Origin: Telopea speciosissima | Lineage: Eukaryota; Streptophyta; Magnoliopsida; Proteales; Proteaceae | Assembly (NCBI RefSeq): GCF_018873765.1 | Contig: NC_057925.1 | Location: 16,503,568-16,567,567, forward strand | DNA: 64,000 bases | Reading direction: 5' to 3' | In this document: piece after piece, positions 14,766-57,917 of the stretch | How the letters are laid out: each line of letters starts with the position of its first letter | Numbering within the stretch: the stretch's first letter is position 1 | Made by a program: the position numbers and the translations under genes | The notes under the pieces: generated by a model | What the model was told of the DNA's origin: nothing | The model's database searches: none | What the model saw: the letters and a program-made list of their open reading frames with translations, nothing else

Positions 14766-14920
14766 ACTATCATGTGGGACCGACGGCCTCCCACAGGCAG
14801 AGGTGAAATGACCGCTCTACCCACTGCCCCACCACCCTATCTGGGTGGGGTCCACACCCTGCTGTGTGAGTCCACAGGAGGGCTGCCACACAGGCTGGAG
14901 GCAGCGGAGGATCCAAATTG
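14766..14920. repeat. GC-rich foldback element in a (CT)n tract
   Basis: A GC-rich element with core GGTGAAATGACCGC, CTACCCACTGCCCCACC and CTGGGTGGGGTCC, ending GGAGGATCCAAATTG. CT microsatellite flanks both sides (before 14766 and 14921-14942). The copy downstream of SABATH B is at 27533-27655. The core is shared with the foldback at 47646-47811, whose arms are different. The arms here are imperfect. Confidence 0.65.
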
Positions 14921-14964
14921 CTCTCTCTCTCTCTCTCTCTCTCATACACACACACACTCACTGT

Positions 14965-15119
14965 GGATCTTCTCCAATGGCATTTAACCCGCATTTAACC
15001 ACCAGAGTCGGTTTCCCACCATCCATAGGGTATGGGGAGCACCTCTGGGATGTGCGGACCACACCATCATGGATGGTGGGAGATCGACTTTGATGGTTAA
15101 ATGTCATTGGAGAGGATCT
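14965..15119. repeat. Foldback MITE downstream of SABATH A
   Basis: The arms are GGATCTTCTCCAATGGCATT, ACCACCAGAGTCG and CCCACCATCCAT on the left. The complement on the right is ATGGATGGTGGGAGATCGA, then TGGTTAAATGTCATTGGAGAGGATC. The duplicated partner is at 27683-27832, so the insertion came before the SABATH duplication. Confidence 0.8.
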
Positions 15120-15194
15120 GAATTCACACACACCAAAAATTTGGAAAAAAAGGGGCAGAGTTGAGGATCGCGGCTGTAAAGTTGCATCAACATA

Positions 15195-15555
15195 TATAAT
15201 TGCAGTAATTAAACATTAGGCTCAACAACTCCATAAATGAGATATAGGATGAATTGTAGAAGCAAGATACTTCATTTTTATTTTATTTTAAAATTTTTAA
15301 GTAACATGATTAGAAAAAAGAAAAAGTTATAAATTAATCCAGTGTCAATCAAACAAAGCCTCTTTTTTGCTTTTGGGGGCGAAATGTAAAATGAAATCGG
15401 GGCGATTCATCCATCATAGGCAGTAGCTAGGGGTTGCTCAAACTTCCACTCGAACAAGCCCATCGAAAACCCCCAGCAGGAGAAACTGTGGAAGCAACTC
15501 GAAGATGGTTATGGGAATTGTGCCATAAGGCTTCTCTACTAAACCATTACTGCAA
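15195..15555 (-). pseudogene. NRT1/PTR (NPF) transporter remnant, copy 2
   Basis: Bases about 15448-15545 read on the minus strand as the motif run MTIFELLPQFLLLGVFDGL, seen intact at 28508-28443. The distal flank 15195-15345 matches 27920-28100. Most of the C-terminal exon seen at 28143-28440 is absent here, so this is a small deleted remnant carried along with SABATH copy A. Confidence 0.75.
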
Positions 15556-15756
15556 CTAAAAAAGAGATATGTTTAGTGAATTAATATCCTAACCCAAAAG
15601 GTTCTTTGAGCCTAAGTCGAGTACTCTGTGCCTCTTCACATTGATTATTTAAATTATTGTTTGTCAATAGGAGTGAGGGAGGTTGGAAGAGAGACAGTAC
15701 CGGGGGAGGAAAGATGATATAAGAGCGGGCTGTCCTAATATATAAAGGGGAAATTG
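15556..15756. other. Short spacer
   Basis: No gene or strong repeat is seen. Similarity to the copy B region stops near 15555. Confidence 0.5.
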
Positions 15757-18700
15757 CTTAGATCTACTTAGATAGCAAAAAGATTTACAAAATAGGTAGA
15801 TGAAAATTATGTTTTACAAATACAAATTACTGTGTTAGAAAGAATTACCACCCCATTTGAGTAAAAAATGCTAAACGAACAGCCTAAAATACCCTCAGTG
15901 TCATTATCTCTCCCTTCGTTTTTGTTTCTTTATTTAATTTTCCTAATATTTTAATTTTTATTGACCCACCCCTTCTTCTTCTTCTTCTTCTTCTTCTTCC
16001 TCCTCCGATAAACACCTCCTCAACCACTCCCTCCCCCTCCCCTACAAACCCGCACCACCCCTACTCATCATTTCTTCCCTCTGTCACTCTCCTGCTCACT
16101 CAATTTTCCTCCTTCCCCTGTAAACCTACCCCACCATGATCCCTTGTCCTTAGCCCCAACCCTGCGCAGCTTACTCCATTCTCTCTGCAAATCCCTGTGC
16201 GACTGTAGCACTAAAATCACGTAAACCGGGTTCTGAAAATAATGAAACTCTCAAATTTTGTTTTCTCTTAAGACTTACTTGATGGTGATGGGTGGGAGTA
16301 GCTAGCATTAAAGCGAGATCTATGTAACGATTGATTCTTCATAGGAAAACTCAAACCGTTTCTCAATAGCTTCACCAGTCCGCATCCAATGAAATCATTA
16401 TCCTCGGAAGATCATGACCTCTTTAGCATAAGAGCTCACTAGGGAAAGAAGACAGATGTGAAGGCCGCTCAATGCCATCGGGAATTTTTCGCAATCGACT
16501 CAAATGTTATACCACCAAGGAATATTTGAAGTGAAAACAGATATTTCCATTTCATATTACTGAAATAAGAAAAGTTGCATATCGGAGAAACACCTCCAAG
16601 TTGCTTTGTTCTTCTATTTAAAACCCTAAGCAGTCCCAATTTCATCCTCAGCCAACTGCCACTACCACCATCGCAAGAGGGCCTCGTTCACCATAGCTGC
16701 AGTCTGAACCAACACTTTACTCGGATCCCAGCATCTTCTTCCACTTTTAAATGCTTCCACTTATACGTATTCAACTCCTTTCAGCCATGGCCGGTGGATT
16801 TAGGTTCGAAACTTCCATAGCTCTTTTCTGCTCAAGAGGGGTTACATGAGCTCCATTTCTTGTTTTAGCTCCCTCTCAGATCTGCTTGTTCTCCTTTAGC
16901 TCAGATCTGAGACTCTTCATCGTCTTTTTATTTTTCTATCCGTTTTTCCGTCTCTTCTTTCCTGGTTTTGTTACTATGAGCGCTCTCTGCATCTAGCTCC
17001 TCCGCTGGGTCTAGATCTATGTCTCTACTCTGTTTCAAAACTGAGCTGCTCTGTTTCTGCTGATCCCTAGTCTTGTCGTCCCCTTTGTCTTCTTTTGTGA
17101 TTGTGAGGTGTTAGTTTATCTAAGCTTCTCAAGATTCATGAATGCTTCTCCGCCCCCTCCCAATGGAGGTTCGACCCTGGCTGGAGAGGGTTTTCCTGAT
17201 GGCCTCCCTGAACGGGTGCCTTCAGGTCAGGGTGGTGGAGCACAGGGGTGCTCTTGGTCTTCCCTTTTCCTGTCTCCTTCTACTGCTCTGGAGGGGCTCA
17301 ACCTTCATTTCTCCCAACCTTCTGTTGTTGCAGGGAAACCTGTGATTCACTGCCCCTCCAGCGTGGTTGATGAAGATCTCCATCTGTGGAATAATACTTG
17401 TGTGGGGTTTTTTGTTGGTCGCAGACCGTCTTTCGACTTTGTCAAGGTCTCTCTCCCCAAGCTATGGAGACTCCAAGGTCAGGTTGAGATCAAGCTTATC
17501 GACAATGGCTATTTTGTTTTCCAGTTTAACGAAGAGGCTGATAAACAACCTGTTTTGGAGGGAGGGCCTTGGAGTCTTCTTCGTCGTCCTCTCATCGTTC
17601 GACCTTGGAACCCAGATCTCCCACTGATAGTAATGCGCTCAGCTTGATTGGTAGCGCCATTGGCACTCCTCTATTTTCTGACCGTCTTACTCTCTCCAAA
17701 GAGCGCCTCTCCTTTGCTCGAATTTGTGTCGAGATTCCGGCAACGGCTGAACTTCACAGATCTGTTTCTATTTTCCCTGAGGGTGGTGCTAGTTTTGAGC
17801 AGGAAATCCTCTATGAATGGGTGCCTCCCTGTTGCGCTTCATGTTCTTCTTTTGGTCACTCCACTGCTCAATGTGAGAGGAAAGGGATGGCTCCCCCTCC
17901 TCAACGCAGGACTTCAAAGGTGGGTTACAGTCGTACTCGCCGGCAGTTGAGCTCGGTAAGCCCCATGAGAGCTCATAGGGATGAAGGTATCCTACCATTG
18001 CAGGTTGGGGTGTTGGGCTGGATGGAAGCCACTTCTATTTCTGCTGCTAATGCTGTGCAATCTGAAACAGCTACCAGACCTATGCCTGACGGTGGTTCCA
18101 ACTCTTTTCCCTTTGTTGTTCCCTTGACTGATGGTCAGACTGCAGCTTTGACTACCATCCATTTTGGAGGTTCTTTAGACAAGATCCTCTACAATGATCT
18201 TTCTGCCCCTGGGTGTGTGGTTCTCCAAGGTAACTCCTTTGCTCTTCTAGAAACTATTGACCCTGAACTCGAGGTTGCAATGTGTAATGCTCTTCCTCAC
18301 GACAAGTCTAGAGAGGGTGGATTCTTGACCCTGCCGGATAAGAACTTTGAAACTCCATTGAATGGTCCCAACTTAGTTATTCCCACTAAGACTCCTAAGC
18401 CTAGGAAGAAAAAGACAAAAAACAAAAAAAAAATTGTCTTTCTCCCCTTCTGAGCCGCAACTTCTGGCTTCATCCAATGTAGAGTCGGAGAGTCATATTA
18501 TGAATGGAGATGCCACTTGCCAGATGGAAATTGAAGCAAGCTCTCCACTTGAGTTGGAATTAATTGTTGATTTGGGGGGAGAAACGTCTCCCAGTCTGGT
18601 TTTGGAGGAGTGTGGACGCCAACCTTTACCCACCTCATTGAGCTCGATGGATATTGAGATGGTTGCCGTGTTGGGAGCTCCTACGCAGGCTTTGTTGGCT

Positions 18701-19752
18701 CATCTGCATTCTGAATCCGATAATCTGAATGGGGTCGTGGCGACCACTCCACATAGTGTGGATGATAGTGTTTTTTATGCCAATGGTAGGGGAGTATTTG
18801 GATCTAAATGTGCTTCTAAGAATCAAAGTAGGAGTTGGGTGATTCCTCCCTATAATCCTAATGGAAAGAAGGTCAACTTTATATACAGGTGACTAGTTGT
18901 TTAGGATTGATTATGTCCTTTGTTGCTCTTTGGGCGGTCTCTCTTCAGCTTGATTAGGCTGTAAGTTAGTCCCTTGTTTGCTTGTTTGTTGTGGAGTTTT
19001 CTCTTTGTATTTTTCCTTATTCTTTCCCTTTTTATTTTGGGGAAAATAGTCTCTTTGCTTCGTTAATATATTTTTCATCCACCCAAAAAAAAACTCCTTC
19101 ATTTCTCCTTCCATTTTTTAATTAAAAAAAAATACATTTTAAAAATTGAAATTAATCGATTTTCGTTATTTTTTGTTTCTTCCTTTACAATTCCTTCGCC
19201 ATTGTGGTAGCTTGAACGTAGGTTTCCACCGAATACTAATCGTCTCCAGTCAACTTGAAAGTACGGTTACTCTTTTCCTCTGTATTTTTCCACCTTTTAA
19301 TTAAAAAAAATTTATTTTTTTCAATGAATTTTGAGGGTAAAAATGTTTTGGTTGGGCTTAGCGGGGGGGTGGAGTTGCAGAGAAGAGAAGAGGGGCGGTG
19401 GCAGAGAGGGAGGGGGTGGATGGCGGCAGTGGCAGGGCCCGATTTGCAAGGAGGAGGGTGGGACGGGGTTGCAGGGGGAGGGAGGGTTGAGTGGTTGCAG
19501 ACGTGATCGTTCATCAAATTAAGAGGAAGGAGAAGGCCGGAGAACGGGACGAAGAAAGAAAGGTGGGGATCAATTAAAAATAAAAGCTAAAAAAGAGAAG
19601 GATGATGAGAGTACTTTTGGTTGTACATTTAACTATTTTTACTCATGGGGATTTGGTAAATCTTTGAAAGGTTGTAACTTGTAATTGTAAAACATAATCT
19701 ACATCTACCAATTTTGTAAATCTTTTACATAGATTATACATATCTAGAGCTA
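15757..19752. mobile_element. Large inverted-repeat element (MULE-like?) enclosing a LINE
   Basis: The segment 15757-16180 is the diverged reverse complement of 19345-19752. The most obvious core is AAAAGATTTACAAAAT, GGTAGATG and TTATGTTTTACAA on the left (about 15775-15825), with its complement at about 19680-19735. GAGTAAAAA-type and CCCTCCCC-rich blocks follow in the same order, at an estimated 65-75 percent identity. The roughly 4-kb unit contains a LINE ORF1 region. A target duplication could not be fixed, so two separate insertions of one repeat in opposite directions remain possible. Confidence 0.55.
17108..19093 (+). mobile_element. ORF1-only LINE: DUF4283 domain, CCHC knuckle, poly(A)
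   Basis: From ATG 17138 a protein runs 169 residues with a DUF4283 domain (LHLWNNTCVGFFVGRR at 81-96, EGGPWSLLRRPLIVRPWNP at 141-159). The reading frame then changes near 17620 and continues to 18453. That second frame carries LYEWVPPCC and a CX2CX4HX4C knuckle (CASCSSFGHSTAQC, about 17830-17875). Basic KKKTKNKKK and acidic stretches follow up to 18892. There is no endonuclease or reverse transcriptase. A T-rich 3' UTR leads directly to an A9 tail at 19085-19093. It thus looks like a half-LINE, ORF1 plus tail. The pyrimidine-rich sequence from about 16820 to 17130 is a plausible 5' UTR. Confidence 0.75.
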
Positions 19753-20063
19753 GAATCGACATTGAACGAATCCAATCTTCTCAAGGTCCCCTTTGACACA
19801 CTCTCTCATCGTTATGAACTGTTCCATGCCCCTCAATAAGTGAACCATTCCATGCCCCTCAATATATGGTCAACATGTGTTAGAGGAAAAAATCGGACTC
19901 ATGCATGCTGATCTATTTATGGCCTCAAATGTCACGTATTGGAACAAAAACAGCATGCTATCTCACATAACATGTGAAGATTGAACAGTGCTGGATCTCG
20001 CAGGCCAAGGACTAAATTGGCTCGTAATGTTCACATATATGTCAGGTTAGTGTTTATGGAAAA
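19753..20063. other. Spacer with duplicated fragments
   Basis: No gene is seen. Bases 19880-19975 resemble 25270-25375, just upstream of SABATH copy B (CGGACTCATGC, GGCCTCAAATGTCA, TATTGGAACAAAAA). Bases 20018-20050 resemble 5755-5800 (TTGGCTCGTAATGTTCA). This is a seam of local duplications. Confidence 0.55.
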
Positions 20064-20534
20064 CTTTTTTACTATGAGTACTCTTGCCATTTATGATTAC
20101 CAGCTTTTCCAATAATTAAACATTAGGCTTCAACCACTCCATAAATGAGATATAGGCATAACGGTTGCTACGAACTGTAAAAACAACATCCATTCAATTT
20201 TTTTTTTTGGGGAGGAGGGTGGGGGGGGGGGAAGAGAATTTTAGTAACATGATTAGAAAAAACAAAAAAAGTTACAAATTGATTAGGTGTCAAGGAGAAA
20301 AAGTCTATCCTTCTAACCTACACCTTTTGCTGCAGTTATGCAACATAAGATGGATAGGATCATTCCAATTCCAATTCCAATTCCAATTCCAATTGGTGCA
20401 ACATACTGACGTCTTGTCTCACCTAATATTAACCTTGATGTATTGTAGAAATTGGTGGCCAGCGAACTTGAATAATCGTACCAATATAGAAAGAGTGTAA
20501 AAGGGAATTTTAGGTGTTCACACCAAAGAAAGAG
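20064..20534 (-). pseudogene. NRT1/PTR (NPF) transporter remnant, copy 3
   Basis: Highly similar to 6270-6692, including the 3' flank and the broken C-terminal pieces on the minus strand. A CCAATT hexamer is expanded at about 20367-20394. The junction with LINE RNase H sequence at about 20535 is the same as in copy 1, showing that the two blocks descend from one fused ancestor. Confidence 0.75.
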
Positions 20535-20825
20535 GTTCTAGTCAAACCTGATTCTTTGGCACCGTAGAGCATCATCTAATAAATAATCTTTCACAGGGGA
20601 AGGGAAATCATCATCCCAAACAAAAGATGAATCGTGCTTTGCCGAGTACTTAGCAAGAAAATCTGTCACCGAGTTCACGTCTCTGAAACAGTGAAAAATC
20701 TTCCAATGGATAACTTTCAAATACGAAAGAAGGCTATTCCATAGTTGACGCACAGACCAAGGAATAGACCCAGACTGGACAGCCAACAACACCGCCACTG
20801 AGTCAGACTCAATCCACAACCTATG
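20535..20825 (-). mobile_element. LINE RNase H domain, copy 2
   Basis: The minus strand reads WIESDSVAVLLAVQSGS, then CFRDVNSVTDFLAK and DDFPSPVKDYLLDD over 93 residues. This is the plant LINE-associated RNase H C-terminal part, better preserved than at 6693-6989. It is cut at 20825 by the gypsy LTR at the same site and with the same CTATG flank as copy 1. Confidence 0.85.
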
Positions 20826-21515
20826 TGTGAGTACTGTACTCCTCGGAGGGGGGTTTCCTCGGCCTTATGGCGACAGGATTTGCCTTTGATGGATTATCGC
20901 GTATCGTTTCGATAAATCATTATGGGGATTGAGATCATGCTTTATAAAAAAAAAAAGGAGTCGCTACCTAAGATTAACGCCTAAGACCCAATGGATGTAG
21001 TCCCATCCGGGGTTAGCGGAAAGGGCTCCGTGATTTCATATGATCTGGCTAGAGATTATGGGTAAATGGTCAGGTTACGAGCATGGGAAGGTATTAGCAC
21101 CCCATCTCGCCCAGTTAAACCGATCTTTCTACTAGATGCTAGATTTAAAAAATTCTCCCTTAATATGTCCTATACCAACATGCACGGCTAAATTATGATG
21201 CACTAAACATGACAAAGAAAGGAAAAAAATCATTGACTATGTACACTAAATCGAACTACTTTAATGGTCTACATTATGCCAAAAATAATAAAAAGAAAAA
21301 AGATAAATACCTGTCAAGAAATAAAAGAAATGAATGGAAAATGTATCAAATGCGAAATATGCGATGTCCCACGGCTCAGGTGGAGACGGATGATAGACTT
21401 GCCTCTCTCTTGTCGGACAGAGTAAAGGCTATATGGGTATCTTTACTCAGACTTCAGGTAGAGTAACGGCCACATATGGGATTTTCGTTATCTGTATACA
21501 GACAGAATAACAGTT
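20826..21515 (-). mobile_element. Ty3/gypsy-type LTR, partial (same insertion as 6990)
   Basis: This fossil LTR is the paralogous copy of the LTR at 6990-9072: it abuts the same LINE RNase H codon position and the same CTATG. Only the 3' part of the LTR (in its own orientation) is present, ending near 21515. It is broken. Confidence 0.8.
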
Positions 21516-21870
21516 GTAATCTAGGGTATTTTTGTCTTCAAACTTTTAATTTGGGCAATTTGGTTTTAAAAAAATGGGTGGGTGAGTATTAATGTTTAAA
21601 ACTAGCGGCAGTTAGTTTGATGCACTAATTTACTTACTTTCAATAGATGAGAGGGTGTGTGTGAAAGGCTTTAAAGATAAGGGGGTGTACATGAAAATAT
21701 GCCATAGTTGAGGGGGTGTCCCTATATTTTCCCCTTAATTTAATTATCTTATTGGTCCATCACTGACCCTATCCTTGACACTTTTTATTGCTTGCTTTTT
21801 TGTCCTTCAATTTCTTTCCATGACTGTGAGTCTGTAGTCACATATGGTGACATACTAATATTTTAGTGGT
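21516..21870. other. Spacer, no gene recognised
   Basis: Low-complexity AT-rich sequence with GAGGGGGTGT-type repeats (for example near 21655, 21690 and 21715) that resemble the ends of a degraded MITE. It may include intron sequence of the RCC1-like gene whose exon lies at 23152. Confidence 0.4.
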
Positions 21871-23119: not shown

Positions 23120-23151
23120 GTGGTATAAATTTTGATCTGAACCTTGTGCAG

Positions 23152-23510: not shown

Positions 23511-23544
23511 ACGAAGATTTGTAGTTAGTAGTTCATAATGAGCT

Positions 23545-24620: not shown

Positions 24621-25389
24621 ACATAAGCCAGTGACCTTATCGTCCGTGTCATGAATTACGACCCAACCGGTCAACCCATCCAACTCATCAGCAAGGACCT
24701 TGAAGAAAAAACGATCCTTCGAAAGACCAATTCGACTCCTTTAATTCTGTCTGCCTCTATTACTGTAGCAAGGTTGAATGTACCGCCTTACCCTTATCTG
24801 AATGTCTTGTCCAAACGGGGTAAAGTGGTACTTTCCATTGCGTCTGTAGGCGGTGGTTATCCGTCGGATTCCAAGCCTTGAGCAGGTGGGCGTAGATCTG
24901 TATCATAGTGGGATTAAAGCTTCTAATGAACCTCACAGTGGGGGATCTAAAACGGTATGGAATGTCCCCCTTCAATGGATCTGTGTGAGGAACAGTCCCG
25001 GCTCTCTCTGTCTCAAACTCTTCCACTAACATATTTAATTCGTTTGCTACAGTTTGAGTAGCCAAAATAATTGAAGGGATCCTTGTCGCCACATCCGATC
25101 CTACAACTCCTTCTCTAACAGCTGTCTCTTTTAAAAGGTTACAGTCAATTGATGTGACCCCAATCCCATCTCTAACCCGCTTTATCTTTTGAATTATATT
25201 GCACGGCAAACTTTTGCTAGCAAATCTTGTCCACTCCAGCCGAGTTAACTCCCGAGTTTTGACTGAGTGAGCGAAAACCGGACTCATGCTGACCTAATTA
25301 GAGAATGTCATGCTGACCTAATTAGGGAATGGCCTCAAATGTCATGTATTGGAACAAAAATAGCATTCCAAATAAGACTTTGTATAACA
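24621..25389. other. Spacer; unrecognised minus-strand open frame
   Basis: A 175-codon open frame runs on the minus strand, 25287-24760. It contains KSLPCNIIQKIKRVRDGIG and YRFRSPTVRFIRSFNP, which match no family I recognise. It could be LINE ORF1 5' sequence upstream of the remnant at 23545-24620. Bases 24727-24890 contain CCGCCTTACCCTTAT and GGGGTAAAGTGGTA, resembling a decayed GC-rich foldback element. Part of 25010-25140 resembles the region upstream of SABATH A. Confidence 0.35.
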
Positions 25390-25461
25390 CACAGGCCATC
25401 GGATGTGTGCCATCCGGTTGCTTTCCTCCCTACTGGTGGAAGACAACAAACTTTCTCTTAT

Positions 25462-27532: not shown

Positions 27533-27655
27533 TGCTGCCACCTGCCTGTGCGGCCTCATAGGCAGAGGTGAAATGACAGCCCTACCGACTGCCCCACCAC
27601 CCTACTTGGGTGGGGTCCATACCCTGCTGTGTGAGGCTGCACGAGAGGCCTCAAA
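27533..27655. repeat. GC-rich foldback element (copy of 14766)
   Basis: Carries the core GGTGAAATGACAGCC, CTGCCCCACC and GGGTGGGGTCC after a (CT)n tract at about 27502-27530. It is shorter than its partner at 14766-14920 and lies in the segment duplicated with the SABATH gene. Confidence 0.6.
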
Positions 27656-27682: not shown

Positions 27683-27832
27683 ACTATGGATCTTCTCCAA
27701 TGACATTTAAACACTAGAGTCGACCTCCCACCATCCATGGGGTGTGGGAAGCACCTCTAGGATGTGGGGACCACACCCCATGGATGGTGGGAGATCGACT
27801 CTGGTGGTTAAATGTCATTGAAGAGGATCTGA
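27683..27832. repeat. Foldback MITE downstream of SABATH B
   Basis: Partner of 14965-15119, with arms GGATCTTCTCCAATGACATT and CCCACCATCCATGG and their complements. A (CA)n microsatellite follows at 27837-27860. Confidence 0.8.
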
Positions 27833-42775: not shown

Positions 42776-44084
42776 ACGGGGAAACCATTTGCTGCCTAGA
42801 CATTCTTTATTTGGTTGGAGACTAGCTCATGAGAAATTACCTGTTGATGATCTAAGTTGTAGAAGAGGGGTGCTTCTGCCATCTAGATGTGAATTCTGCT
42901 TTGAAGAGATCGAATCGGTTAGGCAAATTTCCTTAGATTGTGTCTTTTTGAAACAAATTTTGCAATGTTTCCTAGATTGTTTCGGGGTTAATGGTTTTCG
43001 CCATCATTGACATTGGATCTGTTATAATGGTGGAAAAAGGAAATCTAAAGTACTTTCCCTTAAAAGTGCTTGGAATTCTGGAGTGATGTTAATTCTATAC
43101 AATATTTGGATAAAAAGAAATGCACGAAGATTTGATGGCAAGAGGAAGACTGCTCCACTTATTTTTAAATTAGTGTTAAAAGATCTGTGTCAGCTGGGAT
43201 GTAAATTAAAAGATTTGATCAGATCTGTTTCGGACCTTCTATGCGCCACATATTTGAATATTCCAATACTTTCCCCTACTCCGCAACGGATTCGTGAAGT
43301 TGGGTGGTGTAAGGGAAAAATATCACCTCAATTTGTCTACCCATCAATTTCCTTCCCTCTAATAGAAGGAAAGGTGGTCATTTCGGTCCCCTATTGGATG
43401 GAATTGAGGAAATTGAGGGGCAGACAAATTGAGGGGATACAGATCCGTGGTGTAAGCCAAATCCAGGATGGACTAAATTAAATATCGATAGGTGTTCTCT
43501 TTTGGAATCCAGGAAGAGCAGGGACTGAAGGAGTTTTTCGTGATGATAAAGGAAAAATGGTTTTTTCTTTCAACATATACCTAGGTGTTGGTACGAACTT
43601 TGTTTCTGAAACGGAGAGTCTAGTCCGTCCAAGGTTTGGCTTTGCTAAATAAATGGGAGTGCGCTACCTATGGATAGAGAGTGATTCTTCATAATCAATT
43701 CCTTGGTTTGTTAGTCAATCCTAGATGTATGTCAAAGATTTCTTGGATTCCATACCATTGAAAATAACGCATTGTTGCAGCCAATGCTAATCCAATAGCA
43801 GACTTACTAGCAAAGGATGCAGCTAAAAAAGGTACTTCGATTGATTTCCCTTCTCATATTCAGTTGGAACTTGAGCGGGATGTTCAAGGCAGACCACAGT
43901 TTCAGTTCTCTAGTTAAATCTTTTTATCTTTGTTAGTCTGAATTGTTCCCTGCCGATGACATTGCCGAAGGTGGGGCTTCTCAGGCTAAATTGTTTCTTG
44001 TATTTGTCTAGGTATATGCCTGGACGTTAACTCTGTAACTTTGTTTATTATAATTTATACTTGCTGACCTTTACCAAAAAAAAA
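42776..44084 (+). mobile_element. LINE B, 5'-truncated: zf-RVT, RNase H, poly(A)
   Basis: A plus-strand LINE 3' part. It has the RT-associated zinc-binding stretch (RHSLFGWRLAHEKLPVDDL, CEFCFEEIESVRQISLDC, 42789-43010), the linker ILYNIWIKRNARRFDGK (43089-43139), and RNase H (CSLLESRKSRD-like start; later ANPIADLLAKDAAKKG, QLELERDVQGRPQFQFS, stop about 43915). A 3' UTR with CCGAAGGTGGGG ends in an A9 tail at 44076-44084. Frames change several times. A small MULE-type MITE sits in it at 43314-43446. Confidence 0.85.
43314..43446. mobile_element. MULE-type MITE, 133 bp, with 10-bp duplication
   Basis: The terminal inverted repeats are GGAAAAATATCACCTCAATT at the left and the complement of GGATCTGTATCCCCTCAATT at the right; complementarity continues through AATTTGTCT and AATTTCC for about 45 bp. 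The flanks GTGGTGTAAG (43304-43313 and 43447-43456) are identical, giving a 9- to 10-bp target duplication as left by Mutator-like transposases. It splits the LINE B codon run WCK/PNPGW. Confidence 0.9.
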
Positions 44085-44135
44085 GGTAATTCCATAATGG
44101 TGGAAATGGGTGCTCTTTTTGAACTACCATTGTGA

Positions 44136-44639
44136 GAATCGAGATCCTCTACTAGAGTGGTGGAATATTGACGATATCGCCTTCTCCTACGGTTTTACAT
44201 TCCATGTATGACTCAATCTCCTATTTCAAGCAACCATAATCACATGCGATATGGACTCTACCACAATTGGAAATCGTGATCACATGCGATATGGATTCTT
44301 TCACAATCTCTGTCAATCTAATACACTTGCAACCATAATCACATGCGATATGGACTCTACCACAGTTGAAAATCGTGATCACTTGCGATATGATTCTTTC
44401 ACAATCTCTGTCAATCTAATATTCTATGTAATCTCCATTATTTGTTTCCTTGTATAAGTCAATCTCTTGTAACTTGTATATATACATTCCTCTATTGAGG
44501 AATCATGCATAATCAAAGAATAATATTACACTTGACATGGAAAGAACGCCTTACCCTTACCTGAGCAGGGGTAAAGCGGTCTTTACCGCCTTGCTGTGTG
44601 TAGGACTACCGGGCAGGCAGAAGTAGAGGATCTAGATTC
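44136..44639. mobile_element. GC-rich foldback element with nested LTR-like sequence, 12-bp duplication
   Basis: The ends GAATCGAGATCCTCTACT (44136) and AGTAGAGGATCTAGATTC (to 44639) are inverted repeats. Outside them CTACCATTGTGA is duplicated exactly (44124-44135 and 44640-44651). The right arm holds CGCCTTACCCTTACCTGAGC and GGGGTAAAGCGGTC, the core shared with the other GC-rich foldbacks. The left half is replaced by AT-rich sequence that looks like a solo copia LTR (about 44156-44525; TATATATACATTCC near the end). Confidence 0.7.
44233..44425. repeat. Tandem duplication of a 98-bp unit
   Basis: The unit ACCATAATCACATGCGATAT ... TGTCAATCTAAT occurs twice head to tail (44233-44330 and 44331-about 44425) with few differences. 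Each unit itself carries two ATCAC(A/T)TGCGATATG motifs. It lies inside the LTR-like sequence and may be a U3 enhancer-type repeat. Confidence 0.8.
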
Positions 44640-44651
44640 CTACCATTGTGA

Positions 44652-45104
44652 ACCCTTAGCGGAGAGGGTGCGAGAGATAGTTATAAACTTTGGGAGTAGT
44701 GTATGTGAATTTTGTTGTGCTTTATATTAATGATTACTGAGGTGTAGTATATCAACTACAAGCTATCAGTACCCACCCTTTCATTCTCCAAAATCCTCAT
44801 ACCATGCCTTACACATGCCCAAAAATCACGTAGCAGAGTGGTGGAATATTTCGTTCACAATATGATTAATTCCTCTTGATGTTGTGCATCACTGGTTTAC
44901 AATTTGAGTGATGCACATGTTAATATATTGAATAATGGCAGTTTGTAATTTCAAGCATTATCCATGGTCTGAATTGTTATAATAATAATATGTGGTGTAA
45001 TTATTTGTCCTATAAATCTTCTACAATTTCTTTCCAATCAGCATAAAATATAAGGCCTTGGCTTTCCCTCTAAAATTACTTTATGAGAGAGGGATGGATA
45101 TGTT
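44652..45104. other. AT-rich spacer
   Basis: No gene is seen. The string AGAGTGGTGGAATATT at 44834-44849 repeats that at 44154-44169. Confidence 0.5.
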
Positions 45105-45114
45105 AACAATATAC

Positions 45115-45298
45115 AGATACTGTACGGCGCGCTGCTCGTAACGACCTAAGCGGCGTAGACTAAGCCACCTGCGCAAAGACCGCGTTACCTCTCCCCAAAC
45201 GTCTTGCTCGAGCGAGGGTAAGGTGGTCATTGCGCAAACAGCCCAGTCTACACCACACAGGCCACTACGGGCAGCTGGGCCATAGAGGATCTGTGTTG
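45115..45298. mobile_element. GC-rich foldback element, 10-bp duplication
   Basis: The left arm AGATACTGTACGGCGCGCTG ... CGGCGTAGACTAAG ... TGCGCAAAGACCGCGTTACC pairs with the right arm GGTAAGGTGGTCATTGCGCA ... AGTCTACACCACACAGGC ... GGCCATAGAGGATCTG. AACAATATAC is repeated at 45105-45114 and 45299-45308. It is most like the element at 57730-57917. It inserted at the very edge of the foldback at 45304. Confidence 0.88.
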
Positions 45299-45303
45299 AA
45301 CAA

Positions 45304-45422
45304 TATACCATACCCTAGCACCCTATGTGTCTATCTCTCTCTTCCACCCTAGAAATGGCCCCTTAACCCTCAAAGAGAAGAAGAGAGAGATAGAAACATA
45401 AACTGCTAGCATATGGTATACT
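45304..45422. repeat. Foldback MITE, 119 bp
   Basis: The arms are TATACCATACCCTAGCA and CTATCTCTCTCTTC and their complements AAGAGAGAGATAG and TGCTAGCATATGGTATA. It shares the ATGTGTCTATCTCTCTC block with the foldback at 12092-12259. A (CT)n microsatellite follows at 45443-45472. Confidence 0.8.
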
Positions 45423-46994: not shown

Positions 46995-47048
46995 GATTTT
47001 GTAGACTAGTGTAGAGGGAGATGTGAGAATTGGAAGAGTTCTAACAAG

Positions 47049-47058: not shown

Positions 47059-47645
47059 AGATAGAGACTAGAAGGGATTTCGTTCATCATTTTGACTAGA
47101 TTCAAAGAATGCCAAAACCTTGGACGGTTTTCCATTTCTGCACGGATAATTTTCCAAATTCTTGTAGATTCATTTCTCAATGAATTACCCCTATTGATGG
47201 TAGGTTCTTAATTCTGTTAGAGCAAATCAAGCTACTGAGGTGATTCCAATCTGTATTTTGACAAATCTTTGGATTGGAATATTCATATATGAATTTATAG
47301 CATTTTTTCTTTTTTTGGTAACTAGTTATAGAAAATTAATAAGGGTTATCCTTTTTTTTAGGTAATGAATAAGGGTTAATCCCATGGTGTGATTTTCCCA
47401 TGTATTGATTTTTTGAAGAATCTTGTTTGCATCTACCGCTCAGAGCTTGAAATATAAGGAAGAGAGGAAGTCGGCAACATTAGTAGAAAATTAATTAGGG
47501 TTGTACCAATTTAAATGCCAATTCTTCCAATGGTAAATGGAGGTCCTTTCAGTTTTTTTGTAATAGCTGTGAAATTAATGGTGGATTTTTAAATATTGGA
47601 GGAATTCATTTATGTTCAAAATGGTCCACCCACGTTATACATTTC
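47059..47645. other. Upstream region of the protease gene, no other gene
   Basis: AT-rich, without recognised coding or strong repeats. It contains the distal promoter of the protease gene, if any. Confidence 0.45.
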
Positions 47646-47811
47646 GGATCCTCCGCTGCTGTCTGTTCATGCGGCTGGCATGCAGCCTGACACAGGTAGG
47701 GGCGAAATGACCACCCTACCCACTGCCTGAGTACCCTGCCCGGGTGGGATCCGCGCCCTACTTGTGTGATGCTGCATGCCAGCCGCATGGGCAGGCAGCA
47801 GTAGAGGATCC
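47646..47811. mobile_element. GC-rich foldback element, near-perfect 59-bp arms
   Basis: The left arm GGATCCTCCGCTGCTGTCTG ... CATGCGGCTGGCATGCAGC ... ACACAGGTAGGG is complementary to the right arm CCCTACTTGTGTGATGCTGC ... CATGCCAGCCGCATGGGCAG ... AGTAGAGGATCC. The middle holds GAAATGACCACCCTACCCAC and GCCCGGGTGGGATC, the core shared with 14766-14920, whose arms are unrelated. No clear target duplication. Confidence 0.85.
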
Positions 47812-49245
47812 AAATTGCATATTATCTGCAACTTGGATAGAGAGGGCATGGTCTGAAATCTGAATTAGGCATGTGTCAAATTTTTATATTCAAATTCAAT
47901 CAAATATCCCCTTGTATGTCCTAACACACGTAATGTCTTCCATGTGGCAGCTTACCAAAATGACCAATGCGGGAAGATATCTCTCTCTCTCTCATGAACG
48001 AGTCACCTGATGTTCTGTTTAGGTATTTGAAATTTTCAATATTTCAACAAGATGTCCCACAAAGAATTGAAATTTTCATCACTATATAATTGTTATAATT
48101 AGCTCAAAGAAGGTTACTAAAAAGGGGGAAATAAATCAGCCCAAAAATGTAAACATGGAAATTTTTCATTAAGAAAATAGAAAAATATATTTTTATCATA
48201 TGTTTCATGAGTGAGTGCTATATTTGGAAATAAAAAGAGAGTTTATTGGCTGTTATAACTCAAATAAGGTTACTAAAAAGGGAGAAAAAAAATTTATCCG
48301 AAAAGGCAAACTTTAAAATTTTCATTAAGGAAGAAAAAATATCTTTTTTAAAAAATAAGTTTCATGAGTGCTTTGGTTCTCTCTCCTTCCCCTCCTTTTC
48401 TCTTTTCTATCCTCCCTTTTCCACCTTCTCCCCCCTCCCCCTCTCTTAGGTGCTTTTGTTTTTGTTGTGCTTTCGTTGAATATATTATATTATTTATTCA
48501 TCCAAAAAAATCATATTTTGAAATAAAAAATATCATATTAAGAAATGCAATGGAAAAAATAAATTTAATTCTCTGATCATATTAACCCTATGATCAAACC
48601 TCATGTAGATATAGGATATTAAAAAAATACATCATATGGAAAGGAAGAACAGTTACCTTGAACTAAGGGTGTCAAATTGGAACTGGAACTAAAAACTTAA
48701 ACCAATTCCGGATCAAATAACCTGAACCGAATCGAATGGAATTTGATTATAAACTGAAATTGAGCAACAGAACCAAGGCAAGGCTTGGTTACTTTTCGGA
48801 TCCAACATAGGAACCGGCGGTTAGAACTGAAATCAAACCGAATTTGGGTATATACATATATATATTTATTTATTTATTTATTTAACTAGTATTAGTATAT
48901 TAGTATTAGATTTTATAATACAACTATATTATAATATAATTATTATACTATATATATAGTATAATATATTATATTATATATATATATATAGTATAAACCA
49001 AGTACATGAACTGGAACTGAACCGTGTAGGACCGGTTTTTGGAACCGAAACCGAATTGAAACCATACAGGTTCAGTACGTACAAGTACCGAATTTCAGAG
49101 CCGAGGCGGGATTCGATCCGGATCTAGATCACACTAATACTCCTTAGAACCGAACCAGAACCGAATACACGGTTCTGGACCGATTTACAACCTTACCTTG
49201 AACATTGTATGTGCAGTGCCTCCTTGACAATTTTTCTCTTCCACT
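47812..49245. other. AT-rich spacer
   Basis: No gene is seen. There are repeated motifs at 48105-48170 and 48258-48330 (GGTTACTAAAAAGGG(G/A)GAAA), a TA-rich run at 48850-48990, and an AACCGAACC-rich stretch (48680-49190) typical of intergenic repeats. Confidence 0.5.
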
Positions 49246-50310: not shown

Positions 50311-50314
50311 ATGA

Positions 50315-50490: not shown

Positions 50491-51537
50491 TTTTTGTCAT
50501 TTTTTATCCAATTCTGATAGATGGATCTCAAGTTGTGAAACAATCCTATTGAAACTAGTAACATTGAAAAGCAAACCAGAACTGCAGAATCGATCATGGA
50601 ACTCAAAACAGAATTGAAGTAGAGATTCAAACTTAGGATTGAGCAGTAAACAATATTCAGTTTCAGCATGCAAATCAGAATTAAAAGAAGCAGACTTGAA
50701 ATAGAAAACCTCAATTGGATATTAGGGTTTTGAAATCAGAATTTATGAGCAATCAACTCAGTAACTAAAACTCCATTAAGATCAAATCTGAAACTAAAAA
50801 TCTGGTAGAACAATAAAGTTGCAGGTTATAGAGTTAAGAATTTTGACCTGAATAGAAGTTCGATTCAAGCCTTGAAGGGATCACTCCATGAAGATTCTGC
50901 TCGTCATCTTTATCGGACGACGAAGACGAGCTGCTCACCTCGCCATTAGAGAATCACGTCGGGATCATTTGATGAAGATTCTCGCGTGGCAGGTTCCGGT
51001 ACTTACGACGAAGACCAAACTTCACTTCTCCTGCTCTATATTTTGTTAGGGGCAACAGCGTTGTGAATCTCTGGGATGGCATACGGCTAGGGTTAAGGTT
51101 TGAGGATTCGTCAACTGAGAGTGTTGTGTCGATGTGGGATTTGAATAAGGACGATATTATAAGCTCCTTTTATGGTGATGGCGAGTATCAAATTCTGATG
51201 ATCTCGAGGGCGGCGCCATCGGTGGTGATGACCTGTGTTGGAGGAAAGTGACAACGTGGGATTTAGGGTTTGGAATGCTAAGTTGGGACGTCAGATTCCG
51301 ACGATTTTTGCAGAGTGGCAATCTCGCTGGAGAAGGACAATGGGTGTAGATTCCGACGAAGTGGAGAAGTCTTTAGGATTTGTTTTTTGATAGAAAGAAG
51401 TCTTTAGGATTCACTCCAGCATTCAGTGGGACTTGGGAGAGTTAAACAGAAAAGTGAAACCTAAAGACTAATTAAAGTAGTAAAACCATGATAAAGTCAG
51501 GGTTAAAATCAGGATCAGGCTGGGCTATCATGGGGGA
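50491..51537. other. Spacer, no gene recognised
   Basis: Short open frames (for example 51063-51251) have no recognised motif. Around 50880-51260 GC content rises and GACGACGAAGACGAG-like strings suggest decayed coding or 5' UTR sequence, but no family could be named. Confidence 0.4.
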
Positions 51538-51711
51538 GTCCGGATCTTTCACTTCCGCCTGTCCCTACTTCTGTGTGCGCCTTACACACAATGGGGCGCA
51601 CAAAGTTCGCCTTACCCCTGCCCGAGCGGGGGTAAGGCGGTTTTTGCGCACCTTGTTGTGTGTAGGGTGCACACGGAAGTAGGGGCAGGCGAAAGTAGAA
51701 GATGTCGATTC
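51538..51711. mobile_element. GC-rich foldback element, 11-bp duplication
   Basis: Arms of about 75 bp: left TTCACTTCCGCCTGTCCCTA, CTTCTGTGTGCGCCTTACAC, TTCGCCTTACCCCTGCCCGA; right CGGGGGTAAGGCGG, GTGTAGGGTGCACACGGAAG, TAGGGGCAGGCGAAAGTAG. ATCATGGGGGA flanks it at 51527-51537 and 51712-51722. The inner CGCCTTACCC...GGGTAAGGCGG core is shared with 45115 and 57730, while the outer arms are its own. Confidence 0.9.
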
Positions 51712-51722
51712 ATCATGGGGGA

Positions 51723-53271
51723 TATAGCTACAGAATTTCTAGTAGAGAACTAGAGACTGAAGCGTTGATGTGAGTTACAGAAACACAAGCATAGGTGAGG
51801 TACGGGAATTCTGAATGCCATAGTTGCTCGTATACACTGACGATGTTGACATAGATGTGCATGCAATTGGTGCTAAGTATTATAGGCTCTGATGAAGCTG
51901 CCTGGGGCCCTTTCCCTTGAAATGCTTGCATGTTCACCTTTATCCTGTGTTTCCATGATACCCACAATGTCAATTTTGTGACAAATATTGTCTTTTAATA
52001 GTTGCAGATCTCATTCAAGAGACGTCAACCATAGAAACACAGAAAAAATTGACACTGGAGAGAGCGAAGGGGAGGAAAGTTTACAAGTTAAAAGGTCGAG
52101 CTAGGTTGGGCTGTAATTAGGTGGACTAAATCAGGCCTGAAATCAATTGATCTGGTCAGGCGTCCAATGGGATAGGACTAAGCCTGACACGTTTAATAAT
52201 TGGACCAGTCTATACCATGCTTTAACCAGGCGGGCTCAACTAGTCAACTTATTGATTGCTGAGCCATGAAGAAATTTGACTATCAGCTATGTTCTCTCCA
52301 TCTGTCTCCCCCTAACATTAGAAAGAAAACTTCTCAATTATACCAAGTTGTTCATAATAAAATTCAGAAATAGTGGAAGCAAACATAACTCAAGCTCCAT
52401 GTACTTCAAAGGTAATATATTTCCATCCATGCATGTCGTTTGCAAATTCATTTGAGTGTGTAGAGACATCACACACATGAGATGACACCTCTGTGCGCCC
52501 TGGGTAGATACCTAAGACCATGCGATCAAGTAGAGATCTCTTGTCCTAATATATATTATAAACTTTAAACATCACACGCATTTTGTTATATAATATATTA
52601 TATTTAAAGATAGTAAGTGATATAATATATTTTATTATAATGTTATTCTATATAAAATTGATAATTTTCTCCCCGGCCCAGCCCAGCCCATGCATCTCCC
52701 TTCCCCCTCCTCATGATCTGAGCCAATCAGGTTCAAGCCGGCCGGACCTTGAGGGTGGATCAAGATTGATTTTCTAGGCCCTGAGTCAGGTTTAGACGAG
52801 GCCTGCGCCCAATTAAGGGGACTCAAGGTTAGGCTGGGGTTTTAAAAAATCCAGCCCAACCTGACCTTGTTGTGCCCCACCCGCCCTGTTGATACTTCTG
52901 TGTGCATTCCCATTGGCCCCATTGTACGCGCACAGGCCATGCTCCCCCACAAAGAACTCTGTGTTTGGTTCGAATTCATGTCTCCTCAACCCCCTTCCCT
53001 GTTGGAGACTTGGGTAGTAGAATTCATCCTTTATATTAAGTGAATTACCTAAATTGATTTTGGAATTACAAAACTACCCAAAACAGCACTCCTCCCCATG
53101 GTTCGTAATATAGGGATCGGTCTCTAGGGACTACAACGAGTTTAAAAAAAACAATGAATAACTCAAGACTTTTCAAATGTTTTAGGTTCGAATTCATAGC
53201 TCTTGATCAAGCCCCTTCCCTGTTGGAGACTTGGGTAGAATTCATCCTTAAAAGCTAATCACTAAGGAGAT
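51723..53271. other. Spacer with small direct repeats
   Basis: No gene is seen. The segments 52970-53035 and 53185-53250 repeat CCCTTCCCTGTTGGAGACTT and GGGTAG...AATTCATCC. Another AT-rich run with TATAATATAT lies near 52545-52640. Confidence 0.5.
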
Positions 53272-55401
53272 TGTTATGATTCAAGAATCTGGGAAGGGAT
53301 TCAAGAACCATAGCAGGGGATTTTCTCACTATTTCGAGCAAGTGAGGGACTCCTAAGAAAGGGGAAACAGAGAGAGGAGAGACTGAACTATTTTATTTCT
53401 TATTTCATATTCCATATCCAATGCATATGGTACAATCCCTATTTATAGGGTAATACAATCCAACCCAACCCTTAGTAACAACTAAGCTAACTAACTAACT
53501 AACCACCAAGACTAACTAATAATCCTAATCTATCTCTTAATCCACAGTCATAACATTCCATGGCCCATCAAAACAACCTTGTCCTCAAACCAATATGAGA
53601 AGAAATGGGCAATCCAGTCCACCAACAAGGCATTCCCACTCCAAATGAAGACAAAACCAATTAAAGAAGAAACAGAGAACCCACAAACCAATATGAGCTG
53701 AAATGGAAAACCGAATCCACCAAGAAGGCACTCCACTCCAAATGAGTACAAAAATCAGTTAAGAAGAAACAGCGAACGGAGTCCACCCAGTCCATACAAA
53801 GATGCTCAAGGCGCTGCACTTCATCGTCTACTCCATGGATTTTTTTTTTTTTTTTTTTCCCAACATCGCAGTCCTCCGATCTGTAAACTGGAACATAGAA
53901 CAAGTTGGAGTCGGGGGAACTGCAGCAGAGCGGAGATCAGGACCGTTTTGGTACTTGCTGAGGTCGGATTTGGTATTCTCCGAGACTGGAAGACTTGTAG
54001 AAATTTCTGCAGGTTCCCATCGGCAGGAAGCTTGGGCGGACTTGAGATCCAAGAAAGCACGACACAGCACCGAAGAAACCATCCCTGGCATTAGAGCTTC
54101 AACCGATTGCGGAAAGAAATCTCTCTTCGGCTTCAAAATCTTTGAATGTAAAGACCTCGAGATTAAAGAAATCCCTGACGATAAAATCATGTGCGAAAGA
54201 CCTCCAGATCTAAACCAACATCCCTTCACCGATCGAAGATGAGAAATCCGTGTTAAGAAAACTGGCGAATATGAGAAATCAGGGGCTGTTGACGGTGAAG
54301 ACTGCAACAGAGCGGCGGATTTGGTGTAGAACCGCAGGTCACACTCACAACAGAGCGGTGGAGGTGGCTCTGGTGGTGGCCGAGGGGTCCAGTGTCCAGC
54401 GCTGCCTACCGCATGCGTATGGTGGAGGAGGGTGCCAAGATTGAATGTTGAGGGTGGTAGCTTTTGTGAGACGGCGCTGCAAGCGAATCCTAGAGCGGTC
54501 GGCGGTGGCCATGGCGGAATGGACAGAAAAGCCAAGAAATCTGTGAAATCTTGGTGCAAGAATGGTGTCGCAGCACTAGTATCATTCCAATTTGCACCGG
54601 AAATGGGCTTCTTGCAATGGGTTTTGGCCATTGGCACTAGGTCGGCAAGATTGAGTTTGAAAACTCCGTCACTTTTCGCAACCAACGAAGCCTGCAACGA
54701 AACTTCCACGGCGGTTATGCGATCATCGGCTGCGGTCTTCGCTGCTACAGTCTCCTCATCCTTTAGGTGGTTTGTGCCATTCTCAGTTTTGATCGGCTGA
54801 ACACCAGAGTGGTGACTGAAATTTCTGCAGAAGCAGCGACAACTACAGGGGTGGATGACAACACAACCATGGCAATGGAAGTGATCTCTGCCACGGATGC
54901 TCCAGATAGTGTCAAGTAAGGTTCAAGATCGGCCATTGAACCAAAATCTTCAACTGCCACAAGATCAACAGTGTAAATCCTCTCCTGCTCTTTGCAGATT
55001 GCATCTTCAAGACATGGAAGGAATGCATGATTCGGATCTTGACGTTCCAGTGACCGGAAAAGGAAGACCAGCCTATTGTATTGGGTGAACAAACTCATTG
55101 GAAGGGGAAGGTTCAATGAAAGCACCAATGTTATGATTCAAGAATCTGGGAAGGGATTCAAGAACCATAGCAGGGAATTTTCTCACTATTTCGAGCAAAT
55201 GAGGGATTCCTAAGAAAGGAGAAAGAGAGAGAGGAGAGATTGAATTATTTTATTTCTTATTTCATATTCCATATCCAATGCATATGGTACAATCCCTAAT
55301 ACAATCCAACCCAACCCTTAGTAACAACTAAGCTAACTAACTAACTAACCACCAAGACTAACTAATAATCCTAATCTATCTCTTAATCCACATTCATAAC
55401 A
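53272..55401 (-). mobile_element. Small Ty3/gypsy-derived element with both LTRs
   Basis: A fossil of 2130 bp with LTRs 53272-53555 and 55129-55401 (TGTTATGA...TCATAACA, few differences) and flanks GAGAT and GACAT that nearly match as a target duplication. On the minus strand a primer-site-like TTGGTGCTTTCATTGA follows the upper LTR. GAGGACAAGGTT and a purine-rich tract precede the lower one, as in plant gypsy elements. The 1.57-kb interior lacks any pol domain I recognise. It does hold a 293-codon minus-strand open frame (54709-53828) rich in Pro and Ser that matches no family known to me. Non-autonomous. Confidence 0.85.
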
Positions 55402-55406
55402 GACAT

Positions 55407-56331
55407 GGTGCCCAAGTACCTATAACTCTCCACGTCAGTTTATTCATTTTCGATGTAGAATTATTACTCTCACATGAAACCCCAACATACCCTTCTCTGT
55501 TCCCTTTTTAACCTTGATAGTAATACAGTTGCCTTTGATTTTGTAAAACTAAAGCATTGTAGATCTGAATTGAACCATGAGTTGGGTTTTTCGTATCTCT
55601 TGTGTTCTGTGTTGAATGATGAATGATTACATTCTGAATATCATTCTGAGGGGGAGAGAGAGAGAGAGAGAGAGAGAGAATGGTTCTTATCAGGTTGTGA
55701 ATAAAGAAAGACATGCACATATGTAATGGGATCATGCTTTCAAAAATCAGAATTCGATTAAATGAATTGGTTGATTTGTATTAGAATCGACACTAACTGA
55801 TTCATTTGATTCACAAAGATTTCCTTACCAAAAAAAAAAAAAAGATTCACATCGATTTCTGTCAATTTTTATTATAGTTTCCGGCCGATTCCAACTGATT
55901 TGAATCGATAATCAATCAGTGATTCCAAGATTTGAAACCCTGAATGAGATACAATATATAATGAATGTGATATCTACCCACCAGAGGAATTCAGCTTCCC
56001 AAAAACTAATCAAGACTTGGCTATGGTGCCAACCAATTTCTGTTGATTCTTATCGAATCCAATCAATTCCAAATTTATTTGATTCTGAATTTTGAAATTT
56101 TGGGGTTAGCCAAGTCGTATTGACCTGTTTCTATTGTGCGCATGATTTCTGTTACTTGACAATTCAGGAGTCCCAACATCACTACACATGATAGCCATTT
56201 GAGTTGTTGAGTTGTTGTTGTATACCATTATTTCTCGCATGCAGATCTCAATTCAATTCCATGTTGTAGGTATAATTTTAAAACTTGGTCAACTTTGCTA
56301 GGAAATTAGCAAATCAACTCAATGATCAATC
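55407..56331. other. Spacer with (GA)n
   Basis: No gene is seen. A (GA)n microsatellite lies at 55653-55679, and CAACTGATT-, GAATCGAT-rich repeat sequence at 55780-56100. Confidence 0.5.
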
Positions 56332-56813
56332 TATTATGTGTCTAATGGAGTCCGATCTAGTGTATGAGCGCTAGATTAGGCCAGCCTAGTATGGGATAGG
56401 TTAAATTATTCGATTTAACGCGTTTCATCAGGTCTGGAGATTTTGACGTATTGATCAAGTACCTAACATTTAGTATCAAAGTCGGGCACCACATCAGGTT
56501 TAGAGTCATAAAAAGCTACCTAGGGAGAGTTACCTGAGTAGAGTGAAAGCCATCAAGAAAAGGCTACTAGCCAATGGGCAAAAGGCTTGAAGCGAGTAGA
56601 ATTGCTTGGAAATGGCTAACTACTACCAGAGTAAGAGCCGCCGAGGACGATGGCTGCGGAAGCATGGTAGTCTGTTATGTGCCTAATGGGGTTCGATCTA
56701 GTGTGTGGGGGCTAGATTGGACCTGCCTAATATGGGATACGTTAAAAAGATTAATTTAACGCGTTCTATCAACTCTGGAGGTTTTGACGTATCGATCCAT
56801 CAAGTACCTAACA
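56332..56813 (+). mobile_element. TRIM (miniature LTR element), CAATC duplication
   Basis: A miniature LTR element of 482 bp, with LTRs 56332-56468 and 56673-56813 (about 140 bp, roughly 20 percent diverged, so old). A primer-site-like TTAGTATCAAAGTCGGGCAC lies directly after the first LTR, and a purine-rich stretch GGAAGCATGG lies before the second. The 5-bp duplication CAATC is at 56327-56331 and 56814-56818. The interior of about 200 bp is too short to code. Confidence 0.88.
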
Positions 56814-57163
56814 CAATCAGTCACCTAGCTAGCCAAACTCACCCTATGATGGACTTTCAATTTGACAGATTAACCAAGGTGATTAGTTCTTTTCTTTTTT
56901 TTTTGTTTTGGTGACAATCGAGATGATTAATTCATTCTATTAGAAAAGAACAATCACAACCATCATGTTTCCTTTTCTTCCGCATGCATTACATCTCATA
57001 AAATAATTTTATTTTTTTGATCTTATCGAAGAATTCAACTGCAGCCATTCATTAATAATTAGTGATGGATTCTATAAATCTGATATCTAAGGATTATAAC
57101 TCACTGCTTTGTTCTCTCTTGCCGTTAGTCACTATTGAATTATTTCTCTTCATCTTTGAAGAC
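56814..57163. other. Upstream region of the SSL pseudogene
   Basis: AT-rich, with no recognised element apart from the TRIM flank. A TATA-like AATAATTTTATTTTTT stretch near 57001-57016 may be promoter debris. Confidence 0.35.
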
Positions 57164-57729
57164 ATGAAATCTATCTTCTTCTTAACTGCATTAACCATTG
57201 CAATCCTCTCCATCTATTTGTCTAGAAAAACAATCCGATTTTCCCCGCCGCTTCTTCCGGGAGCTCATGACAAGCTCAAAGATGCAGAACTGATGCCATT
57301 TGGTAATGTAGGAGGTTTTGGTGGGGAGAGTATCACCTTTGACCCTAATGGGGAAGGTCCTTACACTGGTGTCGCCGATGGTCGGATTCTCAAATGGGAA
57401 GGTGAAAGTAAAGGTTGGAGGATATTTGCAGTCATTTCTCCAAATAGGTAACAAAATTAATATTCTTGTGTTTCAAGGATGATTAATACACAATATAGTT
57501 TCCTATTCATGTGAAAGAGTAATGCTAGCATAAACCACTATGGCACAAAATTATCTAGCTCCATTAACCTGTCATGTTAGGGGTCATTATAGATTTATAA
57601 TCTCATATCAGTTTCTTGGTACTTCATACGTACGTTCAAATGCTTGAGGAACTCTCTCCACCTAATGCCTTAAAAGTGTTGGGTTGGACTCTCTTACATG
57701 CCATCAGGCCCAGGTTTCATTATTATTCC

Positions 57730-57917
57730 GATCCAAATCTTTTATGGCGCAGTTGCCCTAGTGGCCTGAGTGGCACAGACACAGCCACACGCACAATGAC
57801 CGCCTTACCTCCGCTTGAGCAAGGCGCTCGGGCAAGAGTAAGGCGGTCATTGCGCACACGGTTGTGTCTGCGCTGCTCAGGCCGCTAGGACTGCTACACC
57901 ATAAAGGATCTGAATTG
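57730..57917. mobile_element. GC-rich foldback element in SSL intron 1
   Basis: Arms of about 75 bp pair with few mismatches: left TTTATGGCGCAG, CCCTAGTGGCCTGAGTGGC, CACAGACACAGCC, AATGACCGCCTTACC; right GTAAGGCGGTCATTGCGCAC, GGTTGTGTCTGCGC, TGCTCAGGCCGCTAGG. Same subfamily as 45115-45298. Flanks ATTATTATTC and TTATATATTC are similar but not identical. Confidence 0.88.

Follow-up and report, generated by a model that had tools for sequence, protein, structure and literature searches.

The window (the whole stretch of DNA analysed, positions 1-64,000) is part of a genome of 823 Mb whose contigs reach 88 Mb. Eight loci in it had been described as one foldback family. We compared the arm pairing of each named locus with 200 dinucleotide shuffles of its sequence. 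Pairing exceeded all 200 shuffles at five of the eight loci. The scores were 32 at 45115 (shuffle maximum 14), 47 at 47646 (18), 47 at 51538 (14) and 43 at 57730 (16), and at 44136 the difference was narrow (17 against 15, with an inserted stretch skipped). The arms at 14766, 27533 and 24727 did not pair beyond 200 dinucleotide shuffles (11.5, 13.5 and 9.5 against maxima of 20.5, 16.5 and 12, respectively). Family membership was assessed by comparing a locus with the subfamily consensuses, with 100 shuffles against the best family as the null. Both 14766 (89 against 24.5 in shuffles) and 27533 (76.5 against 26.5) clearly matched family F, and 24727 gave a weaker match (33.5 against 16). Five loci therefore stand as foldbacks, 14766 and 27533 are relics of family F whose arms are no longer paired, and 24727 is at most a remnant of the core. 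The elements are as follows.

14766..14920, forward strand: family F relic; left end merges into a CT repeat, pairing not above chance
24781..24826, forward strand: candidate core-like remnant
27533..27652, forward strand: family F relic with left arm, core and part of the right arm; pairing not above chance
44136..44639, forward strand: A-like element; roughly 390 bp of foreign sequence splits the left arm
45114..45298, forward strand: diverged group B1-like element; end-1 tip altered
47640..47817, forward strand: family F element with the second core type (AAATGACC..CCTACCC / GGGTGGGATCC); without clear target duplication
51536..51711, forward strand: subfamily A element, 176 bp; tips GAGTCC and GAATCG, core at about 51605-51642
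57729..57917, forward strand: group B-like element; end-2 tip CAATTC, without clear target duplication

Direct repeats flank three of these elements. The 51538 copy lies between 9-bp repeats ATCATGGGG (51527-51535 and 51712-51720), the 45114..45298 element between repeats AACAATATA (45105-45113 and 45299-45307) and the 44136..44639 element between 12-bp repeats CTACCATTGTGA (44124-44135 and 44640-44651). By eye, the stretch that interrupts the left arm of the 44136 element (about 44150-44540) is LTR-like, and a start like its own (GTGGTGGAATATT) is found again near 44840. The window also holds hairpins of other families at 6064-6250, 12092-12259, 59428-59552 and 63626-63693, with arms 82-100% complementary; those of the 6064 hairpin resemble, by eye, an insertion within a B2 copy in locus L005. 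A further hairpin family with CATTTAACCACCAGAGTCG-type arms occurs at 14992-15103 and 27689-27829. Both times it sits beside a family F relic, with CT/CA microsatellites between, and the pair is possibly a composite repeat.

The core is conserved, as had been proposed, and it is a genome-wide repeat. The CCGCCTTACCC core occurs 1982 + 1976 times in the 823-Mb genome, against 316 + 330 for the reversed pattern, and the exact palindromic core pattern was found at 228 places genome-wide against 0. Its 12 bases are the same in all seven subfamily consensuses, although many copies had been found by searching with it and the comparison was anchored on it. A core-only search is blind to the arms; of its 228 places 50 were listed and all 50 were retrieved. 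Similarity searches are biased in that they return the copies most like the query. With the 51538 copy as query, at least 39 other places were 78-89% alike, nearly all over most of the length, among the best 40 scored of 749 first-look candidates; first-look candidates numbered 749-2553 per query, the best 40 being scored for each. From each of five further similarity searches, 20 of the 40 scored places were retrieved, with some near-identical or lower-ranked ones skipped. Judging from the pattern and first-look counts rather than a census, there are probably thousands of copies in this one genome.

The second core type is common to the GC-rich family F (47646, 14766 and 27533) and an AT-rich hairpin family, H. 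Its pattern gave 120 matches, of which 100 were listed and 30 retrieved (the first 25 plus five that were F-like by eye). The pattern left the spacer between the two core halves free, and by eye this spacer too is alike in F and H. Within the window, family H is also recognised by eye at 43321-43439, and its arms look quite unlike those of family F. Several arm versions can be seen by eye within family H (43321-43439; L119, L120, L122-L136, L138-L143).

The elements are about 175-195 bp long (consensus lengths 183-194), and each consists of a tip, an arm and the core, twice, joined head to head. The arms, 70-85 bp including the core, are long terminal inverted repeats. We scored target duplications in six subfamilies, leaving out subfamily C; both tips could be located in 150 of 160 copies. 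Flank identity was 0.707 at k=9 against 0.271 in permuted flanks, falling to 0.316 at k=8 and 0.396 at k=10. A 9-bp duplication with at most one mismatch was present in 89 of the 150 scored copies, and flanks matched this closely in five copies at k=8 and 18 at k=10. A 7-bp duplication, as in the P superfamily and Galileo, was seen with at most one mismatch in only two of the 150 at k=7. The 9-base duplications together with the long inverted repeats point to the Mutator superfamily. The elements are short, high in copy number and flanked by duplications, as MITEs are, and they are most likely non-autonomous Mutator-type foldback MITEs. Their length and the subfamily variation suggest that they lack coding capacity.

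To see whether any longer element has these ends, we scanned the window and 68 three-kb loci that partly overlap; together they held 77 head-to-head elements and 20 single arms. No convincing longer element appeared there or among the eight single-arm loci inspected. As candidate ends of long elements, L050, L055 and L059 were rejected as deletion derivatives, L005 and L007 were interrupted and L045 had a shortened second arm; L048 and L065, also among the eight, were left undecided. L050, L055 and L059 are one-armed or miniature, and L059 is a remnant of about 51 bp with flanks AGCCTCTCG and AGCCTCTCA.

The arms had been described as specific to a copy or subfamily and yet paired, and as changing together. 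Across subfamilies both statements hold. Identity between the arms of one copy averaged 0.77 in the 50 core-selected copies, against 0.63 for arms of different copies, and in 43 of the 50 a copy's own second arm ranked within the closest quarter of all arms. When arms were clustered, both fell into the same cluster in 98 of 109 non-redundant elements, with five large arm groups and some small ones, although 60 of the 118 scanned loci had come from the family-A query or the C-type end pattern. We aligned arms from end 1 to end 2 for 178 copies in seven subfamilies, leaving out L079, L085 and L097; families F and H exist besides these in fewer copies. Arm consensuses diverge by 0.39-0.40 (about 40%) between subfamilies, compared with 0.03-0.29 (mean 0.10) between the end-1 and end-2 consensuses of one subfamily, where an alignment shift inflates the D2 value of 0.29. 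At sites that differ between families, 361 changes were identical in both arms, 123 and 73 affected one arm only and 60 were discordant, counts that are summed over 21 non-independent family pairs. The arms of groups B, C and D align by eye along their length. The most symmetric zone is the middle of the arm. A gradient of arm matching outward from the core was not seen, in that end-1/end-2 differences were not fewest beside it; by eye, in the alignments of the seven subfamilies, their density is higher over the inner 20 bp than in mid-arm.

The arms co-change per lineage, not per copy. Within a subfamily the arms are not copy-specific, as the 78-89% likeness of the relatives of the 51538 copy illustrates, and in six of the seven subfamilies a copy's arms have variants in common no more often than chance predicts. 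We permuted end-2 arms among copies and counted shared-variant cells over all sites. Observed and permuted counts were 29 and 29.5 in A, 23 and 19.3 in G, 37 and 39.5 in B1, 15 and 16.1 in B2, 16 and 16.9 in D2 and 21 and 20.4 in E, so that none of these six of the seven subfamilies showed sharing beyond permutation. Subfamily C had an excess (66 against 38.8 expected). In only one of its 66 shared cells is the variant seen in at most one other arm, and since the variants are carried by several copies we read the excess as sub-lineages. With CpG sites removed, D2 became marginal (10 against 5.8, p 0.0495) and the other five showed no significant excess. Nearly private shared variants, seen in at most one other arm and counted without a null, made up 4 of 16 in D2 and 3 of 15 in B2, with one each in B1, C and E and none in A and G.

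The outermost bases behave differently from the arms. Over the first seven columns, the two tips of a subfamily differ by 0.43-0.71 (mean 0.53), an asymmetry that is partly circular for subfamily C (18 copies, 17 after re-orientation by tip). End-1 tips of different subfamilies are closer to each other (0.33) than are the two tips of one element (0.53), and end-2 tips are less alike across subfamilies (0.47). CAATTT-like tips are present at both ends in 4 of 18 subfamily C copies. In one subfamily G copy, L168, the tips at both ends are of the end-1 type, and by eye its flanks show no clear duplication. As the tips differ at the two ends and the inner arms match, we infer that the tips keep an older end identity and that the arms have been matched within each lineage.

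In three subfamilies (D2, B2 and G), a few copies carry the other arm's core-next block and keep their own outer arm and tip; the block versions were defined after viewing the alignments. Two versions of the D2 end-2 block occur: in 20 of 24 copies it looks D1-like by eye, and in the other four (L070, L110, L205 and L208) it is of end-1 type. Judged by eye, these four retain the end-2 indels farther out, and joint switching of two transversions in the block (10 and 2 bases away from the core) is confined to them. The B2 haplotype combinations were h1/h2 in 13 copies, h1/h1 in 5 (L177, L181, L182, a tie in L183 and L184 with one arm unscorable), h3/h3 in 3, h3/h2 in 3 and h1/h3 in 2, both unscorable on end 1. 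The association between the haplotypes of the two B2 arms was not significant (p 0.062, with three copies having one arm unscorable and one tie). In subfamily G, both arms of L107 carry the end-1 block (g1/g1), yet this copy keeps its end-2 tip and has a 9-bp duplication; L080 carries a deletion that makes one arm unscorable. A formal test of clustered switching over all diagnostic sites gave p<0.05 in 3 of 12 arm sets (B2 E1 0.017; E 0.027 and 0.044). The other nine gave p 0.22-1.0, among them D2 E2 (8 observed against 9.3 expected, p 0.93), where we suspect CpG decay at two of the five sites. In B2, divergence was lower in copies with the same block in both arms (homoarm; p 0.049). In D2 it was not (p 0.15), and two of the four homoarm copies there are among the three most diverged.

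On balance we favour, with moderate confidence, the interpretation that MITEs with largely fixed arms amplify by cut and paste, punctuated by rare copying or exchange of the inner block, mediated by the core, that founds new lineages. The elements would be moved by a Mutator-class transposase from an unseen partner, and their arms would not be renewed in the process. From time to time, an inner block of an arm in a source copy may be copied or exchanged through the shared palindromic core, either by replication template switching in the hairpin or by conversion or recombination with another copy, and the outer arm and tip would be left alone. A successful product could then amplify into a new subfamily. 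Over repeated rounds, arms would drift apart between lineages and stay matched within each. A further reading, which we consider less likely than not, is that new transposon subfamilies are generated by a rare hairpin-templated rewriting within individual elements that begins at the palindromic core and ends short of the outer arm and tip. If true, such rewriting would re-match the arms after one has changed, and inverted-repeat ends could co-evolve without two independent mutations.

The preliminary description had suggested that one arm is recopied from the other at every move. The greater likeness of a copy's own arms (0.77 against 0.63 in the core-selected sample) agrees with this, yet we consider it very improbable. 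The tips have stayed asymmetric, shared variants are at the permutation level in six of seven subfamilies, and copies whose arms differ in the inner block (heteroarm) have spread with the difference kept in D2 (20 of 24), G (23 of 26) and B2 (13 of 26); on the last two grounds we rejected copying per copy. The copies fall largely into a few ordinary families with fixed arms, the outcome named beforehand as counting against renewal, the block variants being the exception. Selection on the hairpin itself, perhaps in RNA form, would favour compensatory changes between the arms and would account for covariation between lineages. In the same six subfamilies, however, shared variants are not in excess; most of the D2 and G copies sampled are heteroarm, and pairing of the tips is not kept. 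Such selection seems to us a highly unlikely cause.

Recombination between elements, reassorting arms between copies at the palindromic core without any copying inside an element, has more in its favour. The heteroarm G and D2 copies look like crosses, the D2 end-2 block is by eye like D1 arms, the end-1 tips at both ends of L168 and its lack, by eye, of a clear duplication would fit, and Galileo offers a precedent for chimeric copies (PMC3573991). In the core-selected set of 50, however, we recognised no copy that combined arms from different members of the five large arm groups; three of the 50 were cluster-discordant, two with an arm replaced or truncated (L105, L115) and one that looks like a clustering error (L085). 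Recombination by itself also does not re-match both arms, and we judge it improbable as the sole process. Somewhat less doubtful, though still unlikely in our view, is that each subfamily derives, as a two-repeat form, from an autonomous Mutator-like element of its own. The arms would then match because the inverted repeats of that element co-evolve with its transposase, and the core would be the conserved inner part of the repeat. The tip-arm-core anatomy repeated twice, the largely fixed subfamilies and the arms that align by eye along their length across groups B, C and D would all be expected. Symmetry is also greatest in mid-arm, the zone of its inverted repeats that maize MURA binds. Against it, the search of 68 partly overlapping three-kb loci plus the window, with eight loci inspected, gave no convincing longer element, and inner blocks vary within MITE subfamilies. 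It also shifts the copying problem onto the autonomous elements.

How the inverted ends of a DNA transposon remain matched during sequence change is rarely testable. Here the ends are labelled by different tips, and homoarm and heteroarm blocks coexist, so that copying, recombination and selection could be separated by counting. What had been noticed is real, if less exotic than it was initially taken to be, its ingredients being known: Mutator-type duplications, asymmetric tips, chimeric arms and arm homogenisation. A published description of these families, or of arm co-change in plant foldback MITEs, was not found among the titles and abstract openings listed from the open-licence literature. 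We regard the elements as new families belonging to a known kind, modest in novelty, with unusually clear labels for studying how inverted repeats are matched.

Arm homogenisation by template switching, in which a stretch of one arm is rewritten from the other and the loop is kept, is described for yeast genes and rRNA genes (PMC8604942, PMC8794818); the available main texts of these two papers contain no word beginning 'transpos', and for the present elements we only infer such a process. As in plant MULEs and their non-autonomous relatives, in the available part of PMC3310237, there are long inverted repeats, duplications of 9-11 bp and non-autonomous derivatives. The repeats here differ in that they meet at a short palindromic core, with arms that differ between related subfamilies. 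Galileo of Drosophila likewise has two-repeat elements and subfamilies defined by the inverted repeats, and the accessible text of PMC3573991 proposes recombination and conversion for chimeric copies with arms of different subfamilies. It belongs, however, to the P superfamily, with 7-bp duplications and long repetitive arms, and its chimeric copies are described in that text as being without matching duplications, whereas the heteroarm copies L098 and L118 carry 9-bp ones. Among known elements, Tm1 of root-knot nematodes, a Mutator/Foldback family, comes closest; for it the available text of PMC3169594 gives mostly 9-bp duplications, foldback-like inverted repeats, MITE-like members and asymmetric 7-bp outer-end motifs with matching repeats inside, all as seen here. 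According to the same text, Tm1 arms consist of tandem repeats of 13-15 bp and the family includes a member with a transposase, whereas the arms of the present elements are non-repetitive and subfamily-specific around a shared palindromic core.
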